The position numbers were made by a program, and so were the translations under genes. From an uncultured Bacilli bacterium (GTDB lineage: Bacteria > Bacillota_I > Bacilli_A > RF39 > UBA660), in the NCBI GenBank assembly GCA_947624705.1, contig CANQLL010000003.1, positions 1 to 44,556 of the forward strand: DNA of 44,556 nucleotides. Reading direction: 5' to 3'. Under the pieces are notes generated by a model. That model did no database searches, was not told the origin of the DNA, and saw only the letters and a program-made list of their open reading frames with translations. Below are positions 10,735 through 39,909 of the stretch, one piece after another. The first letter of the stretch is position 1. Each line of letters opens with the position of its first letter.

Positions 10735-13128
10735 CTATTTGATATTGATTGGATTATCTACTTCACCCGTACCGGAATATGTTAGATTATCAGTTTTTAG
10801 ATTGATAACTGGCACCACGGCTCCGATATCATTATTGGCACTGACGTAGCTTAAGGAACCTGGAGTGCTAGCATCTAACACATAAACATGGCTATTAGAA
10901 TTGTTAGGCGAGGCCGTCCAATAACCATAACTTCTTCTTAAATAATTTTGCTCGGATGCATAAGTATTATATGATAATCCTCCCATTGCTAGTTCATCAG
11001 CTGTTATTAAGCCTATTTTACTTTTATATAGTCCCCCATATGTTCTTGATTGTTTATTTTTATTTACTTGTTCCGGACATACCAGGGTTGGGGTTACATT
11101 TGTTGAATTTGAAACTAATCTCTGGTACGCTCCATAATATAAAGTTGACGTTGAACTTGTATTATCTACTCCACTTCCATAACTAATATCATTACAAAAT
11201 AAACCATATGCTATTTGTTCATCATATTCATTTAAATTTGTTTTATACCACTCTTCTAAGGCATTTTTGATTGTACTATTTGTTCCTCCATTTTCATTTG
11301 TAAAAGTTTTTGTTCCTTTATTATATGTTACTTGACACGGGGAATTTATTGGACATGAATTTCCTCCACTGGTATAGCCTACTTTTTCATGTTCAGGTGT
11401 TGATGACTGCCAAGTATAATAATTATATTTTGAATTATTTGTTAATTTATCTTTTAACATTAATCGGACTGTTCCGTCCCCATTGACTCTTAGAATGCGC
11501 CATTCTTGGTCACCAAATTTGACATAGTTATTATCTACTTGACCTCGGAAGATATAACTTGTTCCACTATCATCTTGAGTGGCGTACAATCCACTTCCCG
11601 CTTTTATTTGGGCATCTGTTAAACTTTCACCTTCTGGTGGAAATCCTTTTGTGAAGTCAGGGTTGGTTACTTTTGGATAATTGGCTATTATCCATTCATT
11701 TAATTTCATTCTTTTAAAATTGACTGTACACTCTGTATCTTTACTTGGACTAGTTATGGTTAATGTATTATTTGCTTCATTATAACTTCCATTTTGTCCA
11801 TTTGTACATGTTACTCCTTTACTTGAATCATATACATAGCCAGAATTTGGATATACTTTCATTGTTGCCGTTGTTTTATAATCTGTTGTTTTAGTAATGT
11901 TTTCTCCTTCACTTATTACATATGGACTGCCGCTACTTCCACTTCCTGTTGCCATTACATCGGCTTTTAAATTGATAACTGGCCGCACTCCGCTAGAAGT
12001 ATTATTGACAGTAACGTCGTAAAGGTAGCCACTGTTGCCGCGAAGAACATAAGCATTGCCACTACTGAAGTAGTAAGGCGACAGGCCCCACCATGGAACA
12101 CCCTTATATAAATAATTACTACTTAAAGCATATGGACTACTATAAGCAAATCCTGCATAATTCATCTCATCAGCACTTAATAAACCTATCTTTAATTTAT
12201 ATAATCCTCCATAGGTATGATATCTTGTTCCATTTACTGTTGTGGTGTCTGTATTTGAGTAACCTGTCCCTGCTGTCGGATTTGGACATATTAAAGTGGG
12301 TTGCCCATATTTTGATGAACTTTTATTTGCAACTCTTTCGTACGCTCCATAATATGTAGTACTTGCTTCACTTCCACTTGCAAAACTAGTGTCATTACAA
12401 TATGTTCCATAGGCTATTTTACTATCATAATTTCTTAAATTATTATAATACCATGTCTCTAATTGTGTTTTTACATTACTATTTGTTCCTCCATAAGTAT
12501 TACTAAAGGTTGCACTATTATTATATGTACTTTGACATGGACTACTTGTTGTACACGGAGTGCTATTATTATATGTATAACCTGTGTACATTCGAGCATT
12601 AGATGAATTATTAAATGTATAGCCACCTATATTTTCATCTAATATGATTCTTATTGTTCCATCTCCATTTATTCGCACTATTCTCCATGTCTTTTCGGCA
12701 AATTTTACATAATTATTAACATTTCCTCTAAAGTAATAACTTGTTCCAGTTTCATCAGAAGTACTAAATAAGCCACTTCCTCCAACACTATTTCCACTTG
12801 CGGGTGGTTCTCCTATGGTGAAATCTGGGGTTACGGTTTTAAGAGTATTATTTTTTAATATTTTATCTACTAAACTTCCCTCTACATATCCATTATTTGC
12901 TTTAACATTTATTTTTATTTTTTTACTAGCAGTTGTTTTAAATGCTGAATATCTTCCTGAGGAAAAGGAATACATAGCCATACTTCTATAAATAAATATA
13001 CTTAATATTGCTACTCCTATAATACTAAACATTGTTACATATTTAAATTTTTTGCTATGTATTCCTTTTCCCTGAACTTTTTTTAATTCTTTTTTATAGT
13101 TAAATGGTTTTAACTTTATTTTCTTCAT
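10735..13128 (-). CDS. Membrane-anchored surface protein with two tandem DUF6273/C-type-lectin-like modules
   Basis: N-terminal basic segment plus TM; duplicated 'GSGL(F/Y)(S/A)T.D..GTSY.FRG.V.N.YVKF....WRI(V/L)R(I/V)NGDGT(I/V)R' and '(W)W..SP...YVL..GxL..V...PVINLK'. Confidence 0.75.
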   Translation of the reverse strand: MKKIKLKPFNYKKELKKVQGKGIHSKKFKYVTMFSIIGVAILSIFIYRSMAMYSFSSGRYSAFKTTASKKIKINVKANNGYVEGSLVDKILKNNTLKTVTPDFTIGEPPASGNSVGGSGLFSTSDETGTSYYFRGNVNNYVKFAEKTWRIVRINGDGTIRIILDENIGGYTFNNSSNARMYTGYTYNNSTPCTTSSPCQSTYNNSATFSNTYGGTNSNVKTQLETWYYNNLRNYDSKIAYGTYCNDTSFASGSEASTTYYGAYERVANKSSSKYGQPTLICPNPTAGTGYSNTDTTTVNGTRYHTYGGLYKLKIGLLSADEMNYAGFAYSSPYALSSNYLYKGVPWWGLSPYYFSSGNAYVLRGNSGYLYDVTVNNTSSGVRPVINLKADVMATGSGSSGSPYVISEGENITKTTDYKTTATMKVYPNSGYVYDSSKGVTCTNGQNGSYNEANNTLTITSPSKDTECTVNFKRMKLNEWIIANYPKVTNPDFTKGFPPEGESLTDAQIKAGSGLYATQDDSGTSYIFRGQVDNNYVKFGDQEWRILRVNGDGTVRLMLKDKLTNNSKYNYYTWQSSTPEHEKVGYTSGGNSCPINSPCQVTYNKGTKTFTNENGGTNSTIKNALEEWYKTNLNEYDEQIAYGLFCNDISYGSGVDNTSSTSTLYYGAYQRLVSNSTNVTPTLVCPEQVNKNKQSRTYGGLYKSKIGLITADELAMGGLSYNTYASEQNYLRRSYGYWTASPNNSNSHVYVLDASTPGSLSYVSANNDIGAVVPVINLKTDNLTYSGTGEVDNPINIK
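10801..10960 (-). other. Candidate DGR-type variable region, C-terminal copy
   Basis: NYLRRSYGYWTASPNNSNSHVYVLDASTPGSLSYVSANNDIGAVVPVINLK; GGT TCC TTA AGC TAC GTC AGT GCC codons, GC-rich relative to the rest of the gene. Confidence 0.4.
11965..12120 (-). other. Candidate DGR-type variable region, internal copy
   Basis: NYLYKGVPWWGLSPYYFSSGNAYVLRGNSGYLYDVTVNNTSSGVRPVINLK; codons TAC TAC TTC, CGC GGC AAC, GGC TAC CTT TAC GAC. Confidence 0.45.
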
Positions 13129-13180
13129 TTTCTTTCATCTCCTATTATGTAAAGTATATTTTCTAGGTTTACATAATAAT

Positions 13181-13208
13181 ATTTTAACCCCCCCCGACTT
13201 TTTGTCAA
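13181..13208 (-). promoter_or_regulatory. Promoter of surface protein with G8 tract in the -35/-10 spacer
   Basis: Minus strand TTGACA-AAAAGTCGGGGGGGGT(16)-TAAAAT, ~50 bp upstream of the ATG at 13128. Confidence 0.7.
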
Positions 13209-38355: not shown

Positions 38356-39909
38356 TTATGTCGTATTTTTAAATGTAAATATAATATCTATCCTTTTATC
38401 TTGATAGATATAAATTTTTTCTACTAAATTTATGATTAATTCTCTTGATAGATTTTCAATTGATAAAAATTTATCAATGTATTTTTCTATTTTTTTATTA
38501 TCTATTTTATTTGATTCTTGATTTTTTAATTTAGCAATATTTTTTTGATTATCTTCTATTTCTTTTTTGATATTTTTCCTTATTCTTAAATATTGTGATT
38601 CATCAATAAAACCTTTTAATCTATCCATATAAGTTTTATCTAAATTTTCAGTTAGTTTATTATTTGTAAGTTCTAAACTTTCAATTTGTTTTTTTATTTT
38701 TAAATTGTTGTCTGCAAATTTTATATTTCCTATAGAATCTTTTATTTTCTTTTTATCAAGGTACTTCTTACAAACATCTTTAATATTATCTAAAATAACA
38801 CGCTCTAATGTTTCATAATTATTTGTATGAGTAGTACAAACATGATACTTTGAGTAAGTTCTATAATAATTGCAAGTAGTATAACTTCTACCTGTTTTAT
38901 TTTGATATCTTATCGTTATTCGATGTTTACAATCTCCACAATATAAAAGGCCATCTAATAAATAAAATCTTTTTTTCTCTGGTCTTTTTACATTTTTAGG
39001 AAGAAGAGTTTGAACATAATTAAAAGTATCTCTATCTATTATAGCTTCATGAGTATTTTTTACAATGATATAGTCTTTAGGATTATTTTTAACTGTCTTT
39101 TTTAATTTATAATTAATCTTTTTAGTTTTTCCTTGTACTGAATCTCCCACGTAGATTTGATTAGTTAAAATTGCTTTTATTGTTGTATCAACCCATACAC
39201 CAAGTTCTTTTGAAATACATTTACTACTCTTTGTATTCCATACATAATTGTAGTAAGATGCTGGTGTTTTAATTTTTCTTTTGGTTAATTCTTGGGCTAT
39301 GTAATGATAAGTATTGCCTTTTAACGCTAAATCGAAGATTAATCTAACGGTCTTTGCTTGTTCTTCATTTATTATTAGATGATTTTTATTATTTGGATCT
39401 TTCATATAGCCAAAAGGACATCTACCTGATACATATAAACCATCTTTCATTCTTGAATGTAAACTAGACTTTACTTTTTTAGAAATATCTTTGGCATACA
39501 TATCATTCATTATGGCCTTAAAAGGTGCTATATCATTATTGGTATTATCTATGAATGTATCTATTCCATCATTGATAGCAATATATCTTATATTATTGTT
39601 GGGAAAATATTTTTCTATTAACTCGCCGGTGCCGATATAATCACGACCCAATCTTGACATATCTTTAGTAATAATCATATTTATTTTATTATTTTCTATA
39701 TCTTTAATCATTTTCTTAAAAGCTGGTCTTTCAAAATTAGTGCCAGTAAATCCATCATCCACATATTCATCAATAACATTATAATTATTTTCTTTAACAT
39801 ATTGATTAAGTAAACTTCTTTGACTAACAATACTATCAGATTCAATATTTCCATCATCTCTTGATAATCTTATATAAAGTCCGACTTTAAAACTATTATT
39901 GCCGATCAT
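38356..39909 (-). CDS. Large serine recombinase (resolvase/Recombinase/zinc-ribbon, TnpX/TndX-like)
   Basis: VGLYIRLSRDDG..SDSIVSQRSLLNQYV, VDDGFTGTNFERPAFKKMI, MITKDMSRLGRDYIGTGELIE, LLYCGDCKHRITIRY. Confidence 0.95.
   Translation of the reverse strand: MIGNNSFKVGLYIRLSRDDGNIESDSIVSQRSLLNQYVKENNYNVIDEYVDDGFTGTNFERPAFKKMIKDIENNKINMIITKDMSRLGRDYIGTGELIEKYFPNNNIRYIAINDGIDTFIDNTNNDIAPFKAIMNDMYAKDISKKVKSSLHSRMKDGLYVSGRCPFGYMKDPNNKNHLIINEEQAKTVRLIFDLALKGNTYHYIAQELTKRKIKTPASYYNYVWNTKSSKCISKELGVWVDTTIKAILTNQIYVGDSVQGKTKKINYKLKKTVKNNPKDYIIVKNTHEAIIDRDTFNYVQTLLPKNVKRPEKKRFYLLDGLLYCGDCKHRITIRYQNKTGRSYTTCNYYRTYSKYHVCTTHTNNYETLERVILDNIKDVCKKYLDKKKIKDSIGNIKFADNNLKIKKQIESLELTNNKLTENLDKTYMDRLKGFIDESQYLRIRKNIKKEIEDNQKNIAKLKNQESNKIDNKKIEKYIDKFLSIENLSRELIINLVEKIYIYQDKRIDIIFTFKNTT

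Follow-up and report, generated by a model that had tools for sequence, protein, structure and literature searches.

We analyzed a 44,556-nucleotide (nt) stretch of DNA from an uncultured Bacilli bacterium of the RF39 lineage (assembly GCA_947624705.1, contig CANQLL010000003.1, positions 1 to 44,556; hereafter, the window), in which a run of eight Gs lies between the -35 and -10 boxes of a promoter in front of a predicted surface-protein gene. Our analysis suggests that this G8 run is the slippage-prone spacer tract of a sigma-A-type promoter, one of ~22 paralogues in the genome, and that it would mediate transcriptional phase variation of the porA type; we place the probability of this reading at about 72%. 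An earlier note on this DNA had proposed the tract as a candidate phase-variation switch, and the proposal is supported by differences in G number between otherwise identical promoter copies, by a placement of long G runs that is exclusive to promoters across the genome, and by recurrence of the arrangement in sister species.

A G8 tract lies in the spacer of a predicted surface-protein promoter

On the minus strand, positions 13208 to 13181 of the window read TTGACAAAAAGTCGGGGGGGGTTAAAAT, which parses as TTGACA-AAAAGTC-GGGGGGGG-T-TAAAAT. The -35 hexamer, TTGACA (13203-13208), is invariant in 19 aligned TTGACA copies of the same genome, and the -10 hexamer, TAAAAT (13181-13186), takes the place of the TATAAT found in most paralogous promoters. 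Between them lies a 16-nt spacer (13187-13202) made up of AAAAGTC, the G8 tract (13188-13195, C8 on the plus strand), which is the proposed slippage switch, and a single T. The promoter scored 11/12 in a consensus scan and was the top promoter-like site of the stretch scanned. An open reading frame of 797 amino acids (10735-13128, minus strand), predicted to encode a surface protein, has its ATG 52 base pairs (bp) downstream of the promoter, behind AGGAG (13139-13143), by inspection a likely ribosome-binding site. Within the window (25.9% G+C), no G or C run other than this G8 reaches 8 nt, and a first-order Markov model predicts 0.06 such runs. The earlier note had described the same boxes, 16-nt spacing and eight Gs, which our re-reading of the minus strand reproduced exactly; it had put the gene about 50 bp away, close to the distance measured here, and had remarked on the rarity of G8 in such DNA, which the count bears out.

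Every long G run in the genome occupies the same promoter position

The genome is a draft of 1.28 Mb in 89 contigs, 88% complete and with ~26% G+C, and we obtained genome-wide counts by pattern searches. Approximately 22 copies of the poly-G promoter were found, twelve with G8, five with G7, and five with G6. Runs of at least seven Gs, on either strand, occur at 17 places, and all 17 fall in the spacer of the arrangement TT[G/T]ACA-N5-TC-Gn-(T)-TAnnAT. The same simple first-order Markov model predicts ~9 such runs, so the placement is more striking than the number, and a chance G run could be ruled out because every run of this length sits in one promoter position. A search with the pattern TTGACNNNNNNTCGGGGGGNNNNAAAAT, allowing up to 3 mismatches, returned 20 matches vs 0 for a reversed control, and no interrupted G run was found in this genome within 3 mismatches of the promoter pattern. 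The -35 box of one copy (C22) is TTTACA instead of TTGACA.

Where enough sequence follows a copy, the gene downstream mostly belongs to a single surface-protein family, whose products start with MKKIKFKWNG or MKKIKLKPFNY; at one copy (C18) the gene downstream has been lost. Copies at contig ends had raised the idea of ribosomal or transfer RNA promoters, which the surface-protein genes downstream ruled out. One further copy (G000:C26, 9840-9812) has G6 in a 17-nt spacer, precedes a MAGGGNS protein outside the gene family, and looks like a derivative fixed at ordinary spacing.

The window promoter is separated from its gene by a 34-nt leader (13144-13177, minus strand) with an inverted repeat, ATTATGTAAA...TTTACATAAT, that is predicted to fold into a hairpin in the 5' untranslated region (12 pairs, -7.1 kcal/mol, z -2.1). 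Twelve leader copies with 0-1 mismatches were found; other promoter copies are truncated by contig ends. This repeat, with arms of ~10 bp, could be where a site-specific recombinase inverts or shuffles promoters and leaders, leaving the G tract a bystander. Many contigs do end within the promoter or leader, and the window holds a large serine recombinase gene (38356-39909, minus strand; PF00239, PF07508, and PF13408). However, each of the 12 leader copies directly follows a poly-G promoter and shares its orientation, no solitary or inverted leader was found, and sister species have poly-G promoters that lack this leader. Contig breaks are moreover expected from assembly alone at a ~100-bp repeat present in some 20 copies. 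We consider shuffling by a recombinase very improbable and, finding no inverted or free copy among the 12 leaders, rejected an invertible promoter. The serine recombinase gene itself is perhaps part of an integrated element.

Tract length differs between otherwise identical promoters

Sixteen copies had enough flanking sequence to be compared, as paralogues in one consensus assembly rather than as alleles of one locus. Eleven pairs of copies are identical over 13 nt upstream and 36 nt downstream of the run, and in 7 of these 11 pairs the G number is not the same; one of the seven consists of the window copy (G8) and a paralogue on C9 (G6). The pairs fall into three groups, so run length must have changed independently three times or more. 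Judged from these sequences, the G run is by far the most changeable site of the promoter, as expected under slippage, which we infer to have caused the length differences.

It could also be that recent duplication and gene conversion spread a single promoter, and that differences in G number are drift or assembly error without function. Promoters, leaders, and signal peptides are near-identical across the copies, and homopolymers are the usual site of assembly error. Against this, short-read assemblers rarely miscall G6 vs G8, pure G runs persist in DNA of ~26% G+C, and the same placement has recurred independently in many genera within unrelated flanks (see below). We regard functionless spread as quite unlikely.

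Poly-G promoters recur in sister species and beyond

Several sister species have ~10-25 poly-G promoters each, with other flanks and runs of G7-G12. A relative of the same genus (G001) carries TTGACAAAAAATC-G8-TTATTAT before genes with a similar start; in sequence and coordinates, this relative agrees with contigs of a metagenome-assembled genome recorded as 'uncultured Bacilli bacterium' (CALVQP01), and the family member G250 with one recorded as 'uncultured Tenericutes bacterium' (CANOWY01). In four other sister genomes (G003, G005, G006, and G007), a repeated promoter particular to each genome is present; the sequence between TTGACA and the run differs, and the run spans G7-G12, mostly G9 in G003 and G9-G11 in the other three. 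The genes downstream encode mostly secreted or surface proteins, several of them related to the window protein, and loci located via G runs include relatives of that protein in G003, G004, G005, and G007.

Across 293 genomes of the wider family, a run of G8 or longer that fits the search pattern is present in 194. Among 150 such matches listed, in which copies within one genome are not independent, TTGAC lies upstream in 43 and a -10-like hexamer no more than 13 nt downstream in 79, compared with 0 and 4, respectively, in a mirrored control. Because the mirrored control has the same base composition, the asymmetry is real: throughout the family, it is only in the coding orientation that promoter motifs border G runs. 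We also searched a class-wide sample of 397 genomes for G8-N0-2-TATAAT, which 39 of them contain; a reversed control matched about four times. Individual genomes hold whole sets, such as seven poly-G promoters over ~19 kb before paralogous secreted proteins (G623) or four related promoters with G10, G11, G11, and G13 (G099). A scan of named genomes returned poly-G promoters also in gut Clostridia and Bacilli, a Treponema, a Saccharibacterium, Streptobacillus, and others; its G6 matches in high-GC genomes look like chance.

In the same scan, a promoter of the type TTGACA-N5-TC-G8..G11-TA was seen in Streptobacillus notomytis, Treponema-like genomes, a Saccharibacterium, and Streptococcus ovuberis (L086, L142, L158, L095, and L129), where it precedes genes for secreted, membrane, or lipoproteins.

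Poly-G elements of other appearance were also observed. One genome (G230) holds eleven copies of ATGCAAACAAAAATTCGATAT-G9..G11-CAAGTTAAAAAA (e.g., C3:24131-24175 and C8:47496-47540) with no obvious -35 or -10 box at the usual place, and another (G109) holds three looser copies; these may represent a separate promoter class or a different sort of poly-G element. In seven copies in G253, a GTTAAC-type inverted repeat (TTAACA...TGTTAACTA) is followed by G8-G10 and CATATAAT without a TTGACA, such that the run lies between a possible operator and the -10 box and its length might alter the operator-to-promoter distance. Finally, some G7-G10 runs of sister species appear to be inside reading frames or at their beginning (G004:C13:23643-23694, G006:C2:14176-14227, and G001:C17:1400-1451), and frameshift-type phase variation may exist there alongside the promoter type.

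Poly-G promoters depart from 17-nt spacing

Ordinary TTGACA/TATAAT promoters peak at a 17-nt spacer, both in the window's own genome (15/26) and in G003 (15/29). Poly-G promoters of the own genome have spacers of 14, 15, or 16 nt and reach 17 nt in 1 of 14 cases, the C26 copy outside the family, whereas none of the 23 in G003 does. Fisher tests of poly-G against other promoters gave p = 0.002 for the own genome (1/14 vs 15/26) and p = 2e-5 for G003 (0/23 vs 15/29), although these tests assume independent copies, and paralogues are not independent. Family spacers thus measure 14-16 nt in the own genome and mostly 18-21 nt in the sisters, with almost none at the ordinary 17 nt; for some genomes, this avoidance of 17 nt is counted among the matches listed. 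In the sisters, 19 nt prevails, in 17/23 poly-G promoters of G003, 9/13 of G005, 6/7 of G006, and 6/8 of G007. The earlier note had held that one extra G would give the optimal 17-nt spacer. That 17 nt is the usual spacing agrees with the ordinary promoters of the genome; that it is the ON state for a poly-G spacer is not certain, given the peak at 19 nt in the sisters.

The avoidance of 17 nt raises the question of whether most copies are off or whether poly-G alters the best spacing. It is possible that most consensus copies are off or weak, one to three slips away from the optimum, which would be anticipated were each cell to use few members of a large family, or that poly-G shifts the optimum. 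The latter is insufficient by itself because close relatives differ by three bases.

We also weighed a fixed structural or regulatory element, in which stiff, A-like poly-G DNA or a bound protein sets the geometry of co-regulated surface-gene promoters and length differences are incidental. MerR-type activators, for example, act on 19-20-bp spacers. The consistent avoidance of 17 nt and the clustering of spacers within species, at 19 nt in the four sister genomes above, would fit such an element, as would the C26 promoter, which keeps G6 at an ordinary 17-nt spacer before a gene outside the family. However, the preferred spacer is 16 nt in the own genome and 19 nt in the sisters, and one fixed geometry cannot explain a preference that differs between close relatives. 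Run length also varies, from G6 to G8 between copies with identical flanks and from G10 to G13 in G099, and the flanks vary freely between species while only the run persists. We judge a fixed element to be unlikely.

Under phase variation by slippage, the replication polymerase would add or remove Gs in the spacer tract; G number would set the spacing and twist between the -35 and -10 boxes, and altered spacing would turn transcription of that single gene up or down. The sequences support the changes in G number and in spacing, from which the change in transcription would follow. Such changes would be reversible and could be maintained by selection for heterogeneity. Most consensus copies are one to three bases off 17 nt, from which we infer that most family members would be off or weakly transcribed in the majority of cells; at 16 nt, the window copy would need one more G. 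More tentatively, the G-run promoters of this family of small-genome Bacilli might act together as a combinatorial switch that spans the genome and controls lectin-like surface proteins. A species-specific cassette would stand before at least 10 genes, selection would hold the majority of copies off the ordinary register, at 16 or 19 nt and hardly ever at 17, each cell would express one or a few members, and any member could be reached by one to three slips. We put this extension somewhat short of even odds.

Several observations weigh against slippage phase variation, in addition to the dependence between paralogues and the use of paralogues in place of alleles mentioned above. Tract lengths are only consensus calls, since the draft is 88% complete and split into 89 contigs, with many promoter copies at their ends. 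The G8 of the window is at the short end for mutable tracts: sister genomes reach G9-G13, and a survey of Neisseria set its cut-off for mutable tracts at G≥9 (PMC5953494), above the window tract. All four TTATTAT-type copies, which were initially identified in G001, have G8, and the concentration of G003 spacers at 19 nt is a narrow length spread within a species. Loss of MutS as a driver of slippage was ruled out, as the MutS mismatch-binding domain is found in the own genome and in all eight genus relatives; slippage is not boosted by its loss, and the rate would be intrinsic.

The downstream protein has a second domain resembling DUF6273

The 797-residue protein has an N-terminal membrane-spanning stretch followed by two homologous, DUF6273-like domains of ~310 residues each. 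Its relatives are numerous: 37 matches were found in its own genome, and each genus relative contributed 13 to 63. Pfam and NCBIfam returned no significant match for the protein itself; among 41 aligned relatives, nine matched the DUF6273 profile (PF19789) at E≤0.1, the best at 4.6e-6. A sequence-profile search found no solved structure related to the protein. The second domain (residues 476-797; 10738-11703, minus strand) was modeled with a mean predicted local distance difference test score (pLDDT) of 96, and in a fold comparison its sole PDB match at E<0.001 was the structure of Thomasclavelia ramosa immunoglobulin A peptidase S32-N876, of which residues 31-322 are DUF6273 (PMC12402451). 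The comparison also returned several viral matches named DUF6273, which are phage proteins. The model thus indicates that the second domain has the fold of known DUF6273 proteins. DUF6273 reportedly resembles C-type lectins (PMC10743442) and, in phages, is reported to be targeted by diversity-generating retroelements (PMC10743442; PMC11792537). Since the template-modeling (TM) scores were modest, 0.3-0.4 of the query, we treat lectin-like binding as a lead and not as a result. A second paralogue subfamily, of ~500 residues, starts with a camelysin/TasA-type segment (PF12389).

Comparison with known phase-variable promoters

Discussions of phase variation in gut commensals deal mainly with DNA inversion, and switching by repeat slippage is best known from host-adapted pathogens of the genera Neisseria, Treponema, and Mycoplasma. 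The vlp promoters of Mycoplasma have a poly-A spacer. The mechanism proposed here is of an already known kind.

The porA promoter of Neisseria meningitidis has poly-G between its -35 and -10 boxes (PMC7864442), and an allele table is available for the gonococcal gene (PMC5320596), whose run, like the one described here, is written C(G)nT. The window promoter and porA share a pure mononucleotide G run between the boxes, a surface protein downstream, and lengths of the G6-G11 type, and spacing near 17 nt would be the critical variable; in our case, the run also differs in length between otherwise identical promoters, these being paralogues of one genome. Length-dependent expression is established for porA and fetA (PMC5320596; PMC7864442). 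Unlike porA, a single locus with expression shown to depend on length, the system here comprises ~22 paralogous promoters known from sequence alone, with further promoter sets in sister species, and belongs to another phylum than Neisseria. The fetA promoter likewise has a spacer homopolymer before a surface-receptor gene, and its length sets the expression level (PMC5320596), but fetA is a single locus with poly-C, whereas the run here is poly-G on the coding strand. In Treponema pallidum, the promoters of tpr genes and tp0126 resemble ours in carrying several poly-G runs of 7-11 within a surface-protein family, and at tprL most molecules have one length while a minority are one or two longer or shorter (PMC7864442); here the run lies strictly between the two boxes. 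As in the Mycoplasma vlp and vlhA families, we see a multigene surface family in a small AT-rich genome with a repeat-bearing promoter for each member. The repeat unit differs, however, and the proteins are unrelated to these surface lipoproteins; in M. gallisepticum vlhA, the repeat is GAA and lies ~40 nt upstream rather than in the spacer (PMC6258824).

In the open-access literature we found nothing on phase variation in RF39 or on promoter homopolymers in such gut Bacilli, which does not prove absence. As far as that search shows, three aspects are new: the lineage; the scale, since a single surface-gene family has most or all of the genome's long G runs in its promoter spacers and related species have parallel sets; and the departure from 17 nt. 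The host bacterium is probably gut-dwelling. If the runs switch, homopolymers would serve a whole family of uncultured Bacilli as cheap switches, with tens of surface-lectin genes under such control in each cell, and this would bear on how these bacteria meet host immunity, mucus, and phages.

Other features around the promoter

TGTAAA/TTTACA half-sites lie on both sides of the promoter copies, as AGTGTAAAG upstream and as ATGTAAAC...TTTACAT in the leader (13144-13177 in the window), and leaders in G001 also contain them (GTGTAAAGTA). These half-sites are possibly the operator of a common regulator, or part of an mRNA-stabilizing hairpin. Directly upstream of the window promoter, we observed two tiny open reading frames (13541-13286, minus strand; MNNNGCGCLGPAIILVLFILLIIIVGAFI and MSTSSSCCKPQKSCQKKNNNNCGCSNAYFIIVLYILLAIILAGIVYY), which we take to resemble short, Cys-rich, spore-associated proteins with a single membrane span (YjcZ-like).
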